47,918 nucleotides of DNA from NCBI GenBank assembly GCA_015665275.1, contig JADFAL010000027.1, positions 1 to 47,918 of the forward strand, in the 5' to 3' direction. The notes under the pieces were generated by a model that searched no databases, was not told the DNA's origin, and worked only from the letters and a program-made list of their open reading frames with translations. The stretch comes from Flavobacteriales bacterium. Its GTDB lineage: Bacteria; Bacteroidota; Bacteroidia; Flavobacteriales_D; Crocinitomicaceae. Both the position numbers and the translations under genes were made by a program. Positions within the stretch are counted from its first letter, which is position 1, and each line of letters begins with the position of its first letter. Of the stretch, positions 33,934-43,568 are shown piece after piece.

Positions 33934-36900
33934 ATGAAATGTAAATTGATGACGGGGGCATCCTTAGGATGCGCATTGTTGCTTTCCGCTGCTTCATTTG
34001 GGCAGTTGTCAATATCCAATGCGGAAACTCTCGTAAATAACACAACAACGAGTGCACAGCAGCACCCGGCGGTATCTCAAGATACGTCTGGTCGCTATGT
34101 AGTTGTTTGGGAAAGCGAACTGCAAGACGGTGATGGTTTCGGAATTTATGCCGAAATCTACAATGCCGATCATACAGTTCGTGTTCCGGAATTTCAAATT
34201 AACACGAACGATCAAACGGACGATCAACGTCACCCAGATGTTGACATGGATGTAAATGGGAACTTCTGTGTCGTTTGGCAGTCCAATGAAGATGACGTTC
34301 TAAGCGATCAAGAATGGGATGTGTATCGTAAGATTTACGACATCGACGGAACCGTTATTGCAACCCGGTCTCGCGTAAACTCAACAACTTCACGAAACCA
34401 GCAACGACCTTCAGTAGCAATGAATGAAAACTATGTGGTTGTTGCTTATATGTCGCAGTTTGGACAAGACGCATACAGTGTTCGAGGTCGATTTTACGAT
34501 GCCACCACGGGTGCTGCATTGCAATCGCCTTTCGATGTTATGGCAAACGCTGCTGATCACGTGGCACATGTTGATGTGTCCATTGATGATCAGGGACAGG
34601 CGCTATTTGTATGGCAAGCGGACAATTTGGATGGTGACCGAAAGGGAGTTTTTGCCTCTGGATATGAACAGCCAAATACGCAGGTGTTTGCGGAAGTACA
34701 GGTTAATACAACAACAGCAGGGAACCAGCAGGAACCTGCTGTAGCAGCTGACTCGGCAGGTAATGCAATGGTGGTTTGGTCGTCGTTTGGACAAGACGGA
34801 GATCACTACGGTATATACAGTCGTTTGATGAACACGTCAGGTACGTTTTCAGGTTCAGAGGTACAAGTAAATTCCACATCAGCAGATTCTCAGGATCATG
34901 CCCGAGTAGAAGCTTCTCGACAAGGAACGAGATTCGTTGTTACATGGACAGACGAAACAGCAGCAGGCGATGGTAATTGGGGAGTCATGGCGCGTCATTA
35001 TGAGGCAGGTGCCTTTCAGGGGTCGGATTCCTTAATAAACGCGACAACGAGTGGAAGGCAGATGTTATCAGATGTTTCCGTTGGTAGCGACAGTTATGAT
35101 GCCATTATTGCATGGCAAGGAGGGAACAGAAAAGGAACTTCAAGTGGATCAGATACCGACGACTTCGGTGTATACGTAGCAGCGGCAGCACTTGCCGATA
35201 ATACACCTCCAAATGCGGTATGCCAGAATATTACGGTGTATTTAGACGGAACCGGAAACACGACGATCACAGCAACGGATGTTGACGGTGGAAGTACAGA
35301 TAACGTTGGAATCGTAAGCTATTCTGTAAGTACCAGTTCATTTACATGTGCTGATATTGGAACGAATTCGGTCGTCCTAATTGTAGCTGATGCCGCTGGA
35401 AATAGTGCCGCCTGTGGAGCTATTGTAACTGTTTTGGATACAGTTACACCTACCGCAGTGTGCCAAAATTTGACAGCCTACCTTGATGGTGCTGGAAATG
35501 CTACAATTACTACAGGGGATGTAGATAATGGAAGTTCGGATAACTGTTCAGTTAGTAGTTTGGCAATTTCTCAATCGGCATTTACATGTGCAGATGTTGG
35601 AGCCAATTCAGTTACACTAACAGTTACAGATCCTTCAGGTAATATTGGTACGTGTACAGCAACAGTAACTATTATTGATTCTGTAACTCCTGCGGCTGCT
35701 TGTCAGAACATAACAGTGTATCTGGATGGAACTGGTAACGCAACGATTACAGGAGCAGATTTAGACAACGGGTCAACTGACAACTGTAGTGGAACACTAA
35801 CTTATACACCTTCTCAATCATCGTTTACATGTGCTGACATCGGAGCCAATTTGGTGACTTTAACTGTAACGGATCCAGGAGGGAATAGCTCAGCATGTTC
35901 TTCTACGGTAACAGTAATTGACTCTGTAACTCCGACAGTAGTTTGTCAGGACATCACAGTGTATCTGGATGGAGCAGGGAATGCTAGTATTACTTCGGCA
36001 GATGTTGATGGAGGATCATCAGACAATTGTGGAACGCCAACATTGGGAATCGATATTTCATCATTCACATGTGCGAATATCGGTCCGAACACAGTGACTT
36101 TAACTGCGACGGACGGATCAGGAAATATAGGTTCATGTACTGCAATGGTTACTATTGTTGATTCAGTTACGCCAACTGCAGTTTGTCAAGACTTGACCGT
36201 GTATTTGGACGGTGCTGGAAATGCAACGATTACTACTGGAGATGTTGACAACGGAAGTTCTGACAACTGTTCTATCGCAGGATTGTCTCTTTCTCAGTCT
36301 AGCTTCACATGTGCAAACGTTGGAGCAAACACCGTAACGCTTTCCGTAACAGATGGATCCGGTAACATTGGAACATGTACCTCGACTGTAACAGTAATTG
36401 ATTCAGTGACACCGACTGCATCTTGTCAGAACTTGACAGTATATCTGGATGGAGCGGGTAATGCGACAATCACGTCGGGTGATGTAGACAATGGAAGCTC
36501 AGACAATTGTTCTATTGCTTCATATGCACTGTCTCAGTTATCATTTACATGTGCTGACATTGGAGCAAATACGGTTACTTTAACTGTAACAGATGCTTCA
36601 GGAAATACAGACGCTTGTACATCAACCGTTACAATTATTGATTCAGTAACACCAACAGCGGTTTGTCAGGATATCACAGTATACCTTGATGGAACAGGTA
36701 ATGCTGCAATCACTGCAGCAGATGTTGACGGTGGATCGACAGATAACTGTGGAACTTCAACATTAGGAATTGATGTTTCATCATTCACATGTGCTAACAC
36801 AGGAGCGAATACAGTAACATTGACAGTAACAGACGGAAGTGGAAATGTTGGTTCATGTACGGCAACGGTAACTATCGTTGATTCAGTTACGCCAACGGCG

Positions 36901-39900
36901 GTGTGTCAAGATATTACAGCCTACCTTGATGGAGCAGGAAATGCAACAATCACTGCGGGAGATATTGATGGTGGTTCAACGGACAATTGTGGAACGCCAA
37001 TACTATCAGCTTCTCAAACAGCCTTTACTTGTGCTGATGCTGGAGCTAATACGGTAACACTTACTGTTACAGATGGATCAGGGAATTCATCGGCTTGTAC
37101 GGCAACAGTTACAATCATTGATTCAGTGACACCGGTTGCTGTTTGTCAGGATATCACAGTATACCTGGATGGAACAGGTAACGGCACAATCACTGCTGCA
37201 GATATTGATGCAGGTTCAATAGACAATTGTGGTACACCAACATTATCAGCGTCTCAAACAAGCTTTACATGTGCAGATGCCGGAGCAAATACAGTAACAC
37301 TTACTGTAACCGATGCTTCAGGAAATACAGATGCTTGTACATCAACAATAACGGTTATTGATTCTGTAACACCAACGGCAGTCTGTCAAGATCTTACCGT
37401 ATACCTGGATGGATCAGGTAATGCAACTATTACCGCAGCAGATGTCGACGGAGGTTCTTCCGACAACTGTGGAACGCTAACACTAGGAATTGATGTTTCA
37501 TCGTTTACGTGTGCTAACGTCGGAGCCAATACAGTAACATTAACAGCTACGGATGCTTCAGGAAATGTTGGTTCATGTACAGCAACGGTTACAGTTCTGG
37601 ATACAGTTTCTCCAACCGCAACGTGTCAGGATATCACTGTTTATTTAGATGGAACAGGAAGTGCAACAATCACCGCTGGAGATATCGACGGTGGATCAAC
37701 GGATAACTGTGGAACGCCATCATTGTCAGCTTCCCTTACAAGCTTCACATGTGCAAACATTGGTGCCAATATGGTAACATTGACGGTAACGGATGCTTCA
37801 GGAAACACATCAACATGTACTTCAACAGTAACGGTGGCTGATACAACGTCACCAATGGCTTCTTGTCAAGACTTGACCGTTTACTTAGATGGAACAGGAA
37901 ATGTAACCATCACATCGGGTGATGTAGACAATGGAAGTTCAGACAACTGTTCTATTGCTTCATACGCGCTGTCTCAGTCGTCGTTTGATTGTTCAAATGT
38001 TGGAGCAAATTCAGTGTCATTATCTGTTACGGATGTTAACGGCAATGTAGGATCATGCACATCAACAGTTACGGTAATTGATTCAGTGACTCCAACGGCA
38101 GTTTGTCAGGACATTACAGTATACCTTGATGGTTCAGGGAACGCAACCATTACCGCAGGAGATGTAGACGGTGGATCAACAGATAATTGTGGAACACCTA
38201 CTCTTGGAATTGATATCTCATCATTCACATGTGCTAATATTGGAGCGAACAACGTTACTTTATCCGCTACGGATGCTTCAGGAAATGTTGGTTCGTGTAC
38301 TGCGGTAGTAACAGTTGCAGATACAACTAGCCCTGTGTTACCAACATTGGCAGACGTCAATTCAGAGTGTTCGGTAACGGTAACCGCGCCGACGACAACT
38401 GATAACTGTGCGGGGACAATTAATGGAACAACTACAGACCCTCTGACATATTCTGCAGAAGGTACCTACGTAATCACGTGGACGTTTGATGATGGAAACG
38501 GTAACACAACAACAGCAACGCAAAATGTAATCATTGACGATGTTACAGCACCGGTAGCTCCAACCTTGGCGGATCTTACGGATGAATGTAGTGTGACGGC
38601 AACGGCCCCAACAACCACGGATAACTGTGCTGGAACTGTTACTGGAACAACTACGGATCCATTGACATACAATACCCAAGGAACATTCGTAATCACTTGG
38701 ACTTTTGACGATGGAAATGGAAACGCATCTACGGCAACGCAAAACGTAATCATTAATGATATTACATTGCCAACTGCTTCGAACATTGATACTGCTTTTG
38801 CAGAATGTATTGGAGATGTGGCTGTTGATATTACGTTGGTAGATGACGAGGCCGATAACTGTGCAACACCAACAGTTACTTACGTAGGAGATATTGCTTC
38901 GAACGGCACAGGTTGTGGAGATACAATTACACGTACGTATAATGTAGCAGATGACGCAGGAAACAATATCGATGTAACTCAGATTATTATATTGAATGAT
39001 GTTACACCACCTACGGCTTCGAACCCAGTAACGTTGAACGTAGTTTGTTTGGCAGATGTGCCTACATCTACGGGAGCAACAGCGTGGGTTACGGATGAAG
39101 CAGATAACTGTGGAACACCTGCAGTTGCATGGGTAAGTGACGTTTCTACTAACGGGACAGGATGTAATGATACCATAACGAGAACCTTCAGTGTGACGGA
39201 TGCTTGTGGTAACTCGATTACTGTACAACAGTTGATCATTATTAATGATGATATCTCTCCTGTTGCAGATGTTGCAACGTTGTCAGATATTACTGAAACA
39301 TGTGATGCGATTCCAGCAACGCCAACGGCTACAGATAACTGTGCAGGAACATTGAACGGGGTACCTGATGTTACTTTCCCAATCAGTACAGTTGGAACAA
39401 CAGTTGTTACGTGGACGTACACTGATAACTGTAGTAACACAACAACTCAAACTCAAAACGTAACTGTTACGGGAGTAGATGTTGGAACAACAATGGCTAG
39501 TGACGGTATTACGATGATCGCGACGAACAACAATGCAGGTGTTACTTACCAATGGATTGATTGTGAAACAAACGCACCAGTGGCCGGAGCAACCAATGTT
39601 AACTTCACACCAACGTATGGTAGTGATTTCGCTGTAATTGTTACGGAAAACGGATGTTCAGACACATCGGCATGTGTAAACAGTACGGTTGGATTGACGA
39701 ATATTTCAATTGATGAGTTCAACTTGTTCCCGAACCCTACTACCGGACAGTTTACGGTAAGTTTCGATGGAGAGATCAAGTCGATTGAAATGATTGATGT
39801 GACTGGCCGAATTGTTATGAAAGAAACAACCTTGAACGAAGGAATGGTAGATGCAAGTATACTTGCACCAGGTAAGTACATGGTTCGCTTGACTGCGGAG

Positions 39901-39948
39901 AATGGAAACATCCTGACCAAACCGATTGTAATAGGTCAAAGCGAATAG
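33934..39948 (+). CDS. Giant T9SS-exported surface protein with 7-bladed propeller and HYR-type repeats
   Basis: This 2004-residue protein has a signal peptide (ALLLSAASFGQ). Residues about 25-425 hold seven repeats like QQEPAVAADSAGNAMVVWSS ... YGIYSRLMN, probably a seven-bladed propeller. Thirteen 80-residue repeats follow (about 426-1466; PTAVCQDITVYLDG ... DNC ... FTCA ... GSCTATVT), each usually with four Cys. Five HYR-like Ig domains come next (about 1467-1850). The C-terminus is a Por sorting domain (FNLFPNPTTGQFTV ... GKYMVRLTAENGNIL). Similar SprB-type proteins are adhesins in gliding flavobacteria; adhesion is the likely role here. It is co-oriented with the upstream S74 protein. 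Confidence 0.9.
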   Translation: MKCKLMTGASLGCALLLSAASFGQLSISNAETLVNNTTTSAQQHPAVSQDTSGRYVVVWESELQDGDGFGIYAEIYNADHTVRVPEFQINTNDQTDDQRHPDVDMDVNGNFCVVWQSNEDDVLSDQEWDVYRKIYDIDGTVIATRSRVNSTTSRNQQRPSVAMNENYVVVAYMSQFGQDAYSVRGRFYDATTGAALQSPFDVMANAADHVAHVDVSIDDQGQALFVWQADNLDGDRKGVFASGYEQPNTQVFAEVQVNTTTAGNQQEPAVAADSAGNAMVVWSSFGQDGDHYGIYSRLMNTSGTFSGSEVQVNSTSADSQDHARVEASRQGTRFVVTWTDETAAGDGNWGVMARHYEAGAFQGSDSLINATTSGRQMLSDVSVGSDSYDAIIAWQGGNRKGTSSGSDTDDFGVYVAAAALADNTPPNAVCQNITVYLDGTGNTTITATDVDGGSTDNVGIVSYSVSTSSFTCADIGTNSVVLIVADAAGNSAACGAIVTVLDTVTPTAVCQNLTAYLDGAGNATITTGDVDNGSSDNCSVSSLAISQSAFTCADVGANSVTLTVTDPSGNIGTCTATVTIIDSVTPAAACQNITVYLDGTGNATITGADLDNGSTDNCSGTLTYTPSQSSFTCADIGANLVTLTVTDPGGNSSACSSTVTVIDSVTPTVVCQDITVYLDGAGNASITSADVDGGSSDNCGTPTLGIDISSFTCANIGPNTVTLTATDGSGNIGSCTAMVTIVDSVTPTAVCQDLTVYLDGAGNATITTGDVDNGSSDNCSIAGLSLSQSSFTCANVGANTVTLSVTDGSGNIGTCTSTVTVIDSVTPTASCQNLTVYLDGAGNATITSGDVDNGSSDNCSIASYALSQLSFTCADIGANTVTLTVTDASGNTDACTSTVTIIDSVTPTAVCQDITVYLDGTGNAAITAADVDGGSTDNCGTSTLGIDVSSFTCANTGANTVTLTVTDGSGNVGSCTATVTIVDSVTPTAVCQDITAYLDGAGNATITAGDIDGGSTDNCGTPILSASQTAFTCADAGANTVTLTVTDGSGNSSACTATVTIIDSVTPVAVCQDITVYLDGTGNGTITAADIDAGSIDNCGTPTLSASQTSFTCADAGANTVTLTVTDASGNTDACTSTITVIDSVTPTAVCQDLTVYLDGSGNATITAADVDGGSSDNCGTLTLGIDVSSFTCANVGANTVTLTATDASGNVGSCTATVTVLDTVSPTATCQDITVYLDGTGSATITAGDIDGGSTDNCGTPSLSASLTSFTCANIGANMVTLTVTDASGNTSTCTSTVTVADTTSPMASCQDLTVYLDGTGNVTITSGDVDNGSSDNCSIASYALSQSSFDCSNVGANSVSLSVTDVNGNVGSCTSTVTVIDSVTPTAVCQDITVYLDGSGNATITAGDVDGGSTDNCGTPTLGIDISSFTCANIGANNVTLSATDASGNVGSCTAVVTVADTTSPVLPTLADVNSECSVTVTAPTTTDNCAGTINGTTTDPLTYSAEGTYVITWTFDDGNGNTTTATQNVIIDDVTAPVAPTLADLTDECSVTATAPTTTDNCAGTVTGTTTDPLTYNTQGTFVITWTFDDGNGNASTATQNVIINDITLPTASNIDTAFAECIGDVAVDITLVDDEADNCATPTVTYVGDIASNGTGCGDTITRTYNVADDAGNNIDVTQIIILNDVTPPTASNPVTLNVVCLADVPTSTGATAWVTDEADNCGTPAVAWVSDVSTNGTGCNDTITRTFSVTDACGNSITVQQLIIINDDISPVADVATLSDITETCDAIPATPTATDNCAGTLNGVPDVTFPISTVGTTVVTWTYTDNCSNTTTQTQNVTVTGVDVGTTMASDGITMIATNNNAGVTYQWIDCETNAPVAGATNVNFTPTYGSDFAVIVTENGCSDTSACVNSTVGLTNISIDEFNLFPNPTTGQFTVSFDGEIKSIEMIDVTGRIVMKETTLNEGMVDASILAPGKYMVRLTAENGNILTKPIVIGQSE
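35209..38331 (+). repeat. Thirteen tandem 240-bp coding repeats with 720-bp higher-order period
   Basis: Units start at 35209, 35449, 35689 (243 bp), 35932 and then every 240 bp to 38092. Units 4, 7, 10 and 13 share GT-x-TLGID-[IV]-SSFTCAN and SGN-[IV]-GSCTA. Units 5, 6 and 12 share DNGSSDNCSIA. Units 8, 9 and 11 share the LSAS centre. The regular spacing of the first type suggests three-unit amplification. Confidence 0.9.
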
Positions 39949-39967: not shown

Positions 39968-39994
39968 AGGGAGTTCGGAAGAACTCCCTTTTTT
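39968..39994 (+). terminator. Rho-independent terminator after the HYR gene
   Basis: AGGGAGTTC (39968-39976) pairs perfectly with GAACTCCCT (39981-39989) around a GGAA tetraloop and is followed by a T-run. It lies 20 bases after the stop. Confidence 0.95.
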
Positions 39995-40041
39995 GTTTCG
40001 GTCTTATTCTTGTTAATCAGAAGAAAGAATAGTGTAATTTT

Positions 40042-40794
40042 ATGACGATGAAAGCATTTCTTTTTACTGCGTTTGTTCTTATTCAAGCGAGTGTTTCATT
40101 CGCTCAGGATAGCACGGGTACAACAGAGTGGTTCCGATCCAAGTCCTTGCCGGAGTTTTGTGATACCTTCCCAACTGATAAATGCGCGGATCGTCATAAT
40201 TTTCTGGAAATCTACGAACCCTTATTCGAACCCATGCGAGATGATTCAATTCGATTTTTTGAGATAGGAATACTCTCTGGACTTTCGCATTTGATGTGGG
40301 TGAATTATTTTCAAAATGCGGAGGTATTCGGAATCGATATTCGCGATTACATTGAGGCTGCAGAAGGGTCGGGAATTAAAACATATGTTGCAGATCAATC
40401 AAATCGACAGGATTTATACGCATTTATGCGAGCAAGCGGAGCAAACTTTGATGTAGTTTTAGACGATGGAGGCCATGCAATGGATCATCAACAAATAAGC
40501 TTGGGTTGTTTGTTTCAATCAGTAAACCCCGGTGGAATATTTATCATTGAAGATGTACATACTTCGCTTCCCCAAATTTATCAGGATTCTTCATTCCACG
40601 TGAATGAACTGGAAACCAATACAACGTTGCTGATGATTGAAACCTTCATACGAACAGGGGAAATTTCAAGCGAATATATGTTAGATGTAGAAGCTGAATA
40701 CCTCGAACAGCATATTGAACGAGTGGAATTACATTACCGCCGGAACGATCGACATTCCATTACATGCGTAATCCACAAAAAAGAAGGCAATTGA
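40042..40794 (+). CDS. Exported class I SAM-methyltransferase-like protein
   Basis: This 250-residue protein has a signal peptide (MTMKAFLFTAFVLIQASVSFAQ; a second ATG at 40048 is also possible). The mature part has the Rossmann methyltransferase pattern: EIGILSGLS (motif I, E-x-G-x3-G), VFGIDI (acidic end of strand 2), FDVVLDDGGHAMDHQQ and GGIFIIEDVHTS. It resembles sugar O-methyltransferases of the CmcI/MycE type. SAM is not expected in the periplasm, so an exported enzyme of this kind is odd. The following haloperoxidase gene overlaps its 3' end by 31 bases. Confidence 0.8.
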   Translation: MTMKAFLFTAFVLIQASVSFAQDSTGTTEWFRSKSLPEFCDTFPTDKCADRHNFLEIYEPLFEPMRDDSIRFFEIGILSGLSHLMWVNYFQNAEVFGIDIRDYIEAAEGSGIKTYVADQSNRQDLYAFMRASGANFDVVLDDGGHAMDHQQISLGCLFQSVNPGGIFIIEDVHTSLPQIYQDSSFHVNELETNTTLLMIETFIRTGEISSEYMLDVEAEYLEQHIERVELHYRRNDRHSITCVIHKKEGN

Positions 40795-42752
40795 AACTGA
40801 ATAAAAGTGCTTATCTAAGTCCTATATTTTTCCTTTTCATTGGGTTTTCAGTATCTGCGCAAGTCGCTGAGAAAAGTGCTGCAAAAATCTGGATGGACGC
40901 CCATTTAGAAGCTATTAAGCAAGATGGTCAAGGACCAACCATTCACTCTAGAAACTTATATCAACTATCATTAGGGATGTATGATCTATGGACGGTATTT
41001 ATGGGAGAAGCTGAGGAAACCATTTTTCTTGGTAAAGGATTCGGGGAGTTCCCCTGTCAATTTGAACCCTATCCAGTTCCCGAAAACCGTGATAGTGCTG
41101 CCATTGTTGCAATCCATTATTACGCATATCGTTTAACTACGGCAAGATTTGGCGAATACTCAAGTAAAGGAAGAACGTACGACATATTTGTATTTCTCTT
41201 CGATTCTTTAGGGCTTGATCCTTCATTTAAGAGTGTAGATTACTCTGAGGGATCTCCGGCAGCGCTTGGTAATTATCTCGCTGAGAGAATGATTGAGTTT
41301 GCTTGGGAGTTTGATCCTGCGGAAGAGTTAGAAGGGTATGAAGGGATTGATTATGAGACGGCAAATCCTCATATTGAACCAAACAAATCAGGAGTGCAGC
41401 AGTTGGAAGATCCGGACCGATGGCAGCCCATTTCAACGAGAGGATATATTGCAGAGAAAGGGTGGAGTGAGAACTTGTTAGATTGGCATATATTATTGGC
41501 ACCAACCGAGGACATATTTTTAACGCCAAATTGGTCAGAAATTCAACCGTTTGCTTTAAGCGATTCTCACGTAGCCTGGGTCGAAAAAGATGGCCGTAAT
41601 TTCCGGATTTACCTTGACCCTGGAGCGCCACCATATACGCGTAATTCACAGGAGGAATTTGATGCCTACCGTTGGAATTTTGAGATTGTCGCTAAGTGGA
41701 GTCAATTTAATACGCCTTTAGATGAAACATTAATAGATATATCCCCAGGGGCTGTTGGAAGCACCGCAGGGTTATTACCGAATACTTTCGAGGAATACAA
41801 AATATTTTACAATGAAGAAGATGGGGGTACGGAAAGCAATCCCACGCGCTTGAACCCTTCTACGAAGAAACAGTACTCAAAACATATGGTGAAACGTGGT
41901 GATTATACACGCTGCATTGCCGAATATTGGGTTGATGGTGTTGGTACGTATACACCACCCGGTCATTGGGTAAGTATTCTTCAAGAGGTTAGCGATCACC
42001 CGGATTTTGTAAGGAAATGGCGTGGAAAAGGAAAGGAAATCCCCCAACTGGAGTGGGATGTGAAGTCATACATGGCTCTGACCGGTGCACTCCACGATGC
42101 TGGAATTGCTGCATGGAGTTCAAAAGTTGCATATGATTACGTGCGACCGATCACAGCAATTCGTTGGATGGCATCAATGGGGCAAGCGAGCGATAGTTTA
42201 GCACCTAGGTATCATCCCAAAGGATTAAAACTTGTTCCAGGAAGTATTGAGCAGATTGCTGAAGGAGATTCTTTAGCAGGAGAGAATGGTGAAAATATTG
42301 GGAAGATTAAACTCTTCACTTGGAAAGGTCCAGAAAGTGTAGTAAACCAAAGAGAAGACGTTGGAGGAGTTGGTTGGATTCTGGCAGAGAATTGGTGGCC
42401 CTATCAGCAGTATGCATTCCCAACACCGCCATTCGCAGGATATGTTTCTGGACATTCCTGTTTTTCTACCGCGGCATCAAGGATCATGACGTACATAACA
42501 GGGGATCCTTATTTCCCTGGAGGAATTTCTACCCATACGTTCAAAAAGGACAGTTTTCTAAACTTTGAAAAAGGGCCTTCAGAGGATTTAACATTGCAGT
42601 GGGCAACTTATAGAGAGGCTTCCGATGAGACGTGCCTGTCTCGAATTTATGGAGGAATTCATCCTCCAATTGATGATATTCGCGGACGTCAAATGGGTGA
42701 AAAAGTAGCTGAAGTGTCTATTGATAAGATTGAAGCCTTACTTGGTAAGTGA
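40764..42752 (+). CDS. Exported vanadium-dependent haloperoxidase
   Basis: This is a 662-residue member of the vanadium haloperoxidase/PAP2 superfamily, which oxidises halides with hydrogen peroxide. The vanadate-binding residues are visible: K-x6-R in KVAYDYVRPITAIRW (about 455-469), SGHS in FAGYVSGHSCFSTAA (about 558-572; acid-base His), and R-x5-H in RIYGGIHPPIDD. A signal sequence precedes it (LSPIFFLFIGFSVSAQ). The ATG at 40764 overlaps the methyltransferase gene by 31 bases. An alternative TTG at 40791 overlaps its TGA as TTGA. Halide specificity cannot be read from the sequence. Confidence 0.9.
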   Translation: MRNPQKRRQLKLNKSAYLSPIFFLFIGFSVSAQVAEKSAAKIWMDAHLEAIKQDGQGPTIHSRNLYQLSLGMYDLWTVFMGEAEETIFLGKGFGEFPCQFEPYPVPENRDSAAIVAIHYYAYRLTTARFGEYSSKGRTYDIFVFLFDSLGLDPSFKSVDYSEGSPAALGNYLAERMIEFAWEFDPAEELEGYEGIDYETANPHIEPNKSGVQQLEDPDRWQPISTRGYIAEKGWSENLLDWHILLAPTEDIFLTPNWSEIQPFALSDSHVAWVEKDGRNFRIYLDPGAPPYTRNSQEEFDAYRWNFEIVAKWSQFNTPLDETLIDISPGAVGSTAGLLPNTFEEYKIFYNEEDGGTESNPTRLNPSTKKQYSKHMVKRGDYTRCIAEYWVDGVGTYTPPGHWVSILQEVSDHPDFVRKWRGKGKEIPQLEWDVKSYMALTGALHDAGIAAWSSKVAYDYVRPITAIRWMASMGQASDSLAPRYHPKGLKLVPGSIEQIAEGDSLAGENGENIGKIKLFTWKGPESVVNQREDVGGVGWILAENWWPYQQYAFPTPPFAGYVSGHSCFSTAASRIMTYITGDPYFPGGISTHTFKKDSFLNFEKGPSEDLTLQWATYREASDETCLSRIYGGIHPPIDDIRGRQMGEKVAEVSIDKIEALLGK

Positions 42753-42753
42753 T

Positions 42754-43512
42754 CTATTGCTTCCACCAATCACCAATAAGTTGTATCACAGCGTCTGATT
42801 GTTCCAAATGAGGGTGATGTCCACAGTTTTGAAGCATAATGGTTTCATGTTGGCCTGAGTAATTCTGCGAAATCAACTCCAATTGTTTTACCGTTCCGTA
42901 TTGATCATCTGCACCCTGAATGAACAATCCTTTAGCATCTGACTCTGAAATCTCAGCTGAGATGTCCCAGCTAGCAAACGCATCTGATCGCCAAATATTC
43001 GCCCAGGCGTAAAACAATGCTTCGGTTTTATCACCGTGATATTTCTTCAATCCATCTAGTTTTCCGGCATCAAAGGCCAGTATAGCCGGAGCAATACCTT
43101 GAATCGTTTCCGGTTCATTGATAACGTGTGCGGCCATTGTCACAATTCCAGCAACTCGATTTGGATAAGCAGAAGCGAAAAGCAATGCGATTGTGCCTCC
43201 ATCTGAGTGTCCTACGAGGACGATAGAACGATCTTCATGAATAGCATCCAAAAATGCGGGAAGTTCTGTTAGCGCGTAATTATGAAGGTAATTGGCATCT
43301 CGACTCACCAGAAGTGGGGAAGAGGAGCCGTGCCCTTGACGTTCGTATACAATTCCCGGTAGATCCAACTCGTTGCAAAGTTTCTCAGGAAAATCCTTCC
43401 ATTGCGGTATACTTCCCAAAGCTTCGTGCAGAAACAATAGCACTGGACCTTTTGTGGACGTATTTCCAATTTGCTTACAATGAAGGGTGATATTGTTGAA
43501 AGTTGCTACCAT
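42754..43512 (-). CDS. Alpha/beta-fold hydrolase
   Basis: This is a 252-residue serine hydrolase. The start at 43512 (MVATFNNITLHCKQIG) gives the usual first beta-strand; an upstream in-frame ATG at 43542 adds 10 unlikely residues. The nucleophile elbow is GHSDGG (Ser98). LLFLHEALGSIPQWKDFPEK holds the oxyanion region, FIQGADDQYG carries the acid Asp, and GHHPHLEQ carries the catalytic His. Substrate is unknown. It is convergent with the haloperoxidase, with their stops one base apart. Confidence 0.88.
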   Translation of the reverse strand: MVATFNNITLHCKQIGNTSTKGPVLLFLHEALGSIPQWKDFPEKLCNELDLPGIVYERQGHGSSSPLLVSRDANYLHNYALTELPAFLDAIHEDRSIVLVGHSDGGTIALLFASAYPNRVAGIVTMAAHVINEPETIQGIAPAILAFDAGKLDGLKKYHGDKTEALFYAWANIWRSDAFASWDISAEISESDAKGLFIQGADDQYGTVKQLELISQNYSGQHETIMLQNCGHHPHLEQSDAVIQLIGDWWKQ

Positions 43513-43568
43513 AAAAAATGAGTTACAAACCCAAGTCTGCAACTCACTTCAAGTTTTTATCTAAACAC

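Follow-up and report, generated by a model that had tools for sequence, protein, structure and literature searches.

Class I methyltransferases depend on S-adenosylmethionine (SAM), a cofactor assumed to occur only in the cytoplasm; what, then, could such an enzyme do once exported? The question is raised by a gene in a 47,918-nt contig of a Flavobacteriales bacterium (JADFAL010000027.1, here the window; contig C30 of a 3.64-Mb genome in 115 contigs, designated G000) that encodes a predicted exported methyltransferase, here called paralog A, and is followed directly by a gene for a vanadium-dependent haloperoxidase. The original prediction had regarded these two genes as a probably co-translated pair. 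Both reading frames lie where it placed them, and PDB and Pfam matches together with diagnostic motifs identify the first as a methyltransferase fold and the second as a haloperoxidase. Sequence comparison and a structural model gave a fold match to the methyltransferases MycE and SpnK, conserved export signals, complete SAM and metal sites, one exported clade among bacterial relatives, and an inconstant gene neighborhood. Judged by its sequences, the exported family is a real, unusual variant of the MycE-like methyltransferases.

Fold, active site and export signal of the methyltransferase

Paralog A matched the catalytic domain shared by two sugar O-methyltransferases, MycE of the mycinamicin and SpnK of the spinosyn pathway, with E values of 1e-16 for PDB 3ssm and 2.5e-16 for 8ia9 (related entries 3ssn, 3sso and 8iaa), and a fold comparison with Foldseek also placed it with MycE/SpnK structures. 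The Foldseek list includes 3ocj, which carries the PDB title 'possible exported protein'. Pfam gave sub-threshold matches only for A, and NCBIfam no family; across set A1, Methyltransf_24 was matched by 12/12 sequences and Methyltransf_31 by 7/12 (E 0.01). The fold of this domain and the MycE residues D275, H278 and D304 are common to A, MycE and SpnK. The latter two, however, are enzymes of actinobacterial antibiotic pathways of about 400 aa (397–419 aa for chains of this type) that also possess a Tyr208 loop and a domain N-terminal to the catalytic one, whereas A has 250 aa including its export signal. The claim made here is of a homologous catalytic domain, not of membership in the MycE subfamily, and we infer methyl transfer to a sugar hydroxyl.

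Motif I of class I methyltransferases takes part in SAM binding. The original prediction had left conservation of the SAM-binding residues to be checked, and in an alignment of 12 exported copies with 28 cytoplasmic-type Bacteroidota relatives the SAM and metal positions E74, G76, G80, S82, D99, D142, H145, E170 and D171 were identical in 12/12 and 28/28 sequences, respectively. D142, H145 and D171 correspond to MycE Asp275, His278 and Asp304, whose roles are taken from PMC9275233; the MycE numbering (an offset of 20) and the placement of Tyr208 were counted by hand. Two letters beside the SAM motifs are peculiar to the exported copies (12/12 in each case): His83, where the others have Leu (25) or Ile (3), and Ala117, where they have Gly (27) or Leu (1). 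Cys40 and Cys48 are both present in 6/6 A copies and neither occurs in 6/6 copies of a second paralog, B, nor is Cys among the five commonest letters of the 28 relatives at either column. This pair, specific to clade A, suggests a disulfide made outside the cytoplasm.

The protein begins MTMKAFLFTAFVLIQASVSFAQD, a typical Sec signal both by eye and by a simple rule. Among the 34 genus genomes searched, six (G000, G153, G187, G200, G312 and G313) hold one intact A and one intact B each, and all 12 copies start with a signal peptide or lipobox; loss of the signal in orthologs, which would have spoken against the original prediction, was not seen among them. Lipobox-like cysteines occur in the A copies of G200 (GGC) and G313 (ASC), and the rule flags one in L005, a contig of 'bacterium isolate bin.55', as well. 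On the 28 relatives outside the exported clade, four of which have no ATG testable under the rule (L064, L069, L077 and L082), it was passed by 0/24. Matches to PF13847 in the window's own genome served as a further control (n = 21): of the 17 in closed reading frames with an ATG before the match, none passed from the first ATG, and three matches passed only from a later Met. Export is predicted to be conserved in orthologs and paralogs alike.

The haloperoxidase and its neighborhood

An overlap of up to 31 bases had been reported for the two genes. This requires the haloperoxidase to start at ATG 40764, a codon that is absent from the frame in L005, the syntenic relative, where the furthest upstream start is a TTG aligned with TTG 40791 of the window. 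Counted from the TTG, the overlap is 4 bases in the window and 14 in L005. The signal peptide attributed to the haloperoxidase likewise depends on the start codon: from TTG 40791 the N-terminus is a signal, MKLNKSAYLSPIFFLFIGFSVSAQ, that passes the rule, while from ATG 40764 it fails. Co-translation of the two genes is plausible. Pairwise comparisons of A (window, L005 and L006, a contig of G187) and of the haloperoxidase (window and L005) gave synonymous differences (pS) of 0.81–0.89 and about 10% non-synonymous differences, and within three orthologs each of A and B synonymous differences were near saturation with 7–11% non-synonymous. Near-saturated synonymous change against about 10% non-synonymous change indicates that A and the haloperoxidase are real, constrained genes.

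The haloperoxidase passed the Pfam cut-off for PF22778 (VCPO_2nd) narrowly (29.6 bits vs 27), and PDB entries were matched both by single sequence (9l8x, E 4e-8; 4cit, E 2e-6) and by profile (9l8x, E 3.5e-15). The vanadate site of such enzymes is defined by the motifs KX6RP, SGH and SRX5HX3D. All three are shared with known vanadium haloperoxidases (PDB 9l8x, 4cit, 8cxl and 9ptr), from which the window protein is set apart as a member of a distant Bacteroidota group, and K445, R452, S553, G554, H555, R618, H624 and D628 are invariant in 11/11 aligned genus sequences. As to the fold of two helical bundles typical of these enzymes, the AlphaFold2 model was unusable (predicted local distance difference test score, pLDDT, 35.6) and the PF22778 score lies just above its cut-off. 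The protein is an ordinary exported enzyme as far as can be read from its sequence, and a putative halide oxidizer as opposed to a phosphatase. Haloperoxidase matches were found in 17/34 genus genomes, nine with full-length proteins (12 sequences) and eight with weak partial matches only. A tree of the 12 full-length sequences has two clades, and the short type is confined to 4/34 genomes (G000, G153, G200 and G312), the G312 gene (L053:3692-5725) being broken by one in-frame TGA. The window's genome has a second haloperoxidase, 43% identical, at L004:1480-4866; its open frame of about 1290 aa greatly exceeds the length of the enzyme.

Among named genomes, 'Fluviicola sp. XM-24bin1' and 'bacterium isolate bin.55' are near relatives of the window's genome, each at 82% protein identity. 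The idea of a conserved, working gene pair did not hold up across the genus, as the haloperoxidase adjoins A in only two of the six genomes with intact A (G000 and G153). In G187, an 82%-identical A ends one base from the convergent hydrolase gene with no haloperoxidase between them, and in G200 and G313 there is an 8-base overlap between A and a peroxidase-related gene of AhpD type (TIGR01926; L057:6345-6905 and L055:445-1005). The G312 contig ends soon after A; the haloperoxidase gene of this genome is found on a different contig, where it diverges from an ABC transporter gene, an arrangement also seen in G200. Searches of G187 and G313, which both carry A and B, turned up no haloperoxidase of the short type. 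All four genomes with the short type fall among the six with the methyltransferases, but this link is weak: the tree offers 3 independent contrasts, too few for statistical significance. The same test of A against B had identical codings and shows only that 3 contrasts exist. Eight further genus genomes have a hydrolase match of at least 59% identity over most or part of its length, and in the seven read by eye (all but G301) neither A nor a haloperoxidase lies beside it, so the site of A looks special to the window lineage. On gain versus loss of the haloperoxidase in G187 the trees differ: the PorW tree pairs G000 with G187 and the A tree G153 with G187, neither with starred support. From gene order, the haloperoxidase is an inconstant neighbor and the pairing mostly incidental.

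Features of the locus are listed in Table 1. An operon of A with the upstream gene for a repeat protein carrying a type IX secretion sorting domain is unlikely, since a terminator-like hairpin separates the two in the three genomes compared, the arrangement in L005 and L006 being similar by eye. In G153 and G187, too, similar repeat-protein genes were seen by eye upstream of A.

Table 1. Features at the methyltransferase–haloperoxidase locus (window positions)
Feature	Position	Strand	Remarks
Exported MycE/SpnK-type methyltransferase, paralog A	40042..40794	+	250 aa
Predicted Sec signal peptide	40042..40104	+	residues 1-21, MTMKAFLFTAFVLIQASVSFA|QD; cleavage site placed by eye
Cys40-X7-Cys48	40159..40185	+	candidate disulfide of clade A
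Motif I, SAM-binding loop	40261..40287	+	E74-I-G76...G80-L-S82
D141-D142-G-G-H145	40462..40476	+	D142 and H145 equivalent to MycE Asp275 (metal) and His278; 3ssm alignment
E170-D171	40549..40554	+	D171 equivalent to MycE Asp304 (metal); 3ssm alignment
Vanadium-dependent haloperoxidase	40764..42752	+	662 aa from ATG 40764; 653 aa from better-supported TTG 40791
Haloperoxidase motif K445-X6-R452-P	42123..42149	+	numbered from TTG 40791
Haloperoxidase motif S553-G-H555-S	42447..42458	+	invariant 11/11
Haloperoxidase motif S617-R618-X5-H624-X3-D628	42639..42674	+	S617, R618, H624 and D628 invariant 11/11
Terminator-like hairpin and T run	39969..39995	+	between upstream type IX secretion cargo gene and methyltransferase; by eye
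Alpha/beta hydrolase, convergent neighbor	42754..43542	-	Pfam Abhydrolase_1
HYR-repeat protein with type IX secretion C-terminal sorting domain	33934..39948		2004 aa

Paralogs, their distribution and viral relatives

Methyltransferase matches were found in 9/34 genus genomes. Besides the six with intact A and B, G303 has a degraded A (L056:4052-4633) with an internal stretch missing and motif residues changed, G290 has fragments only, and G311 carries a signal-less relative of another clade; G313 holds further A pieces cut by contig ends. The B copies lie between yebC and porW, a type IX secretion gene (e.g., L002:1399-2151; porW was identified on the G312 copy by NF052312, 559 bits). The genes yebC and porW are neighbors in 30/30 loci examined, with B between them in 5/30 and also in G187; elsewhere in the genus loci examined the junction is direct, with a B fragment left in G290. 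A PorW tree of 31 of the 34 genomes places the methyltransferase genomes in three places (G000/G153/G187, G200/G313 and G312), so that their distribution needs at least 3 changes. The same yebC-porW slot in separate lineages, together with the leftover fragment, argues that A and B probably form an old pair that was inherited jointly and lost together several times, rather than repeatedly gained.

In a tree with bacterial relatives, all 12 exported copies fall into a single clade (support 99/96) in which A and B are each single. The cytoplasmic-type Bacteroidota relatives lie on the other side of this tree except L080, one of three very long branches, which is drawn next to the exported clade. 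A second tree omitted L080, L014 and L077 and added nine of the 20 IMG/VR viral loci found to encode relatives; A and B stayed single, and the exported state took 2 changes on the best tree. All matches above 200 bits lie inside the genus, after searches of 240 genomes of the family and of samples of 399 from the order and 395 from the phylum. The plasmid collection held distant matches only (32 records, all below 60% identity; 15 listed at 25–36%).

Outside the genus the nearest sequence found is viral, and no bacterial relative found there comes as close: L184:1941-2603, on a 78-kb IMG/VR contig, is 45–49% identical to every exported copy over 198–211 residues, about the identity of A to B. 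It resembles the exported copies in sequence, but no signal peptide was seen in it by eye. L185 is a close copy of L184 with a frame open only downstream. PHROG 21658, 'methyltransferase', was matched by 4/4 proteins scanned (window A, L002 as B, L184 and L186). L184/L185, L186/L187, L188 and L189 cluster with the exported copies (100/98), although some of the branches are long and the tree does not settle the branching order with the exported copies, and sugar- and glycosyltransferase-like genes surround L186-L188 (by eye). The exported family may derive from a phage-carried glycan methyltransferase, or phages may have taken the gene up from bacteria.

Proposed function of the exported methyltransferase

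Our tentative preference, a little short of an even chance, is that A belongs to a two-member, genus-restricted branch of exported MycE/SpnK-type O-methyltransferases still active on envelope sugars. Its members would have gained Sec signal peptides (with a lipobox in at least two genomes) and would work outside the cytoplasm as SAM- and Mg-dependent enzymes that methylate a hydroxyl. The substrate would most likely be a sugar of the cell envelope or of surface glycoconjugates handled by type IX secretion, the latter being candidates because the six intact B copies adjoin porW, a neighborhood that may have no functional meaning. SAM would then have to reach the periplasm or surface, and the haloperoxidase would be an ordinary exported enzyme that happens to lie downstream of A in two genomes.

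Several observations weigh against this proposal. We know of no source of SAM outside the cytoplasm, and none of the literature matches listed describes one, or a route, in the text available. Sec delivers unfolded protein, so SAM would not be carried along during export. A lacks the Tyr208 loop that follows motif I (an insertion in 3ssm relative to the query) and the N-terminal auxiliary domain of MycE: the phmmer match starts at chain residue 180, and 3ssm_C aligns from residue 155 onward, while the alignments of some other chains include a few residues from 42-45. Inspection by eye showed no multi-gene glycan cluster around A or B, although isolated glycosyltransferase-like genes occur within a few genes of A in G200 and G313 and close to the degraded copy in G303. 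The signal rule is crude, being passed by 25/222 internal pieces of window reading frames; presence of A and B in only 6/34 genomes shows that they are dispensable; and once viral sequences are added, a single origin of the exported copies appears in 55% of bootstrap trees, which is not firm.

One alternative is a repurposed fold that binds another ligand, as the original prediction also proposed; methyl transfer would have been lost, and the same pocket would bind an extracellular ligand, nucleoside-like or a sugar, in a sensor, adhesin or scavenger. The normally cytoplasmic location of SAM and the exported-only His83 and Ala117 are in its favor, but since none of the SAM- and metal-binding positions has changed, including the catalytic D142, H145 and D171, which go beyond SAM binding, it is not favored and seems somewhat unlikely. 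Also unlikely is a dedicated extracytoplasmic SAM-dependent system, in which two co-inherited O-methyltransferases of a phage glycan-enzyme lineage would methylate envelope or type IX-secreted glycans with SAM that either crosses the inner membrane or is acquired from outside the cell. It is quite improbable that the protein is not exported in practice, whether held by an uncleaved N-terminal anchor or begun at a downstream start as an ordinary cytoplasmic enzyme. Export is read from sequence, and a TTG codon (Leu36) stands just before the domain in the window, but signals on 12/12 copies, lipobox-like sites in two A copies and the paired Cys of clade A speak for export, and the positive-inside rule would leave an anchored domain outside.

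Very improbable is a functional pair, an operon whose products would act on one shared exported substrate or produce methyl halides or methylated halophenols. The genes do overlap in G000 and G153, the short haloperoxidases are confined to methyltransferase genomes, and a peroxide theme recurs in the AhpD-like gene overlapped by A in G200 and G313; against this stand the adjacency in two genomes only, G187 with no haloperoxidase beside A, the missing short type there and in G313, the ABC transporter gene beside the haloperoxidase in G200 and G312, and the non-significant contrasts. A maturation factor for the haloperoxidase, another suggestion of the original prediction, is unlikely, given that G187 and G313 retain A and B but yielded no haloperoxidase of the short type.

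Secreted methyltransferases of Plasmodiophora brassicae and Mycobacterium tuberculosis likewise leave the cell, according to the parts of the literature available. Such pathogen enzymes presumably work within the host cell, a setting that contains SAM. COG4798 proteins look like exported methyltransferases, and a literature search for 'COG4798' gave no match. Among the matches listed for secreted methyltransferases were papers on clubroot and protists, mycobacteria and host epigenetics, which does not show absence of others from print. The Fluviicola and haloperoxidase match was a lipocone superfamily paper, and in the portion of PMC12188728 available 'haloperoxidase' occurs in the reference list only.

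With a whole active site kept and an export signal on every intact copy, the presence of usable SAM outside the inner membrane becomes a testable question. If the enzymes are active, methylation would join the modifications made in the envelope of Gram-negative bacteria, with products of type IX secretion as possible targets; if they are inactive, the family would be a clear example of a catalytic pocket retained to bind a ligand.
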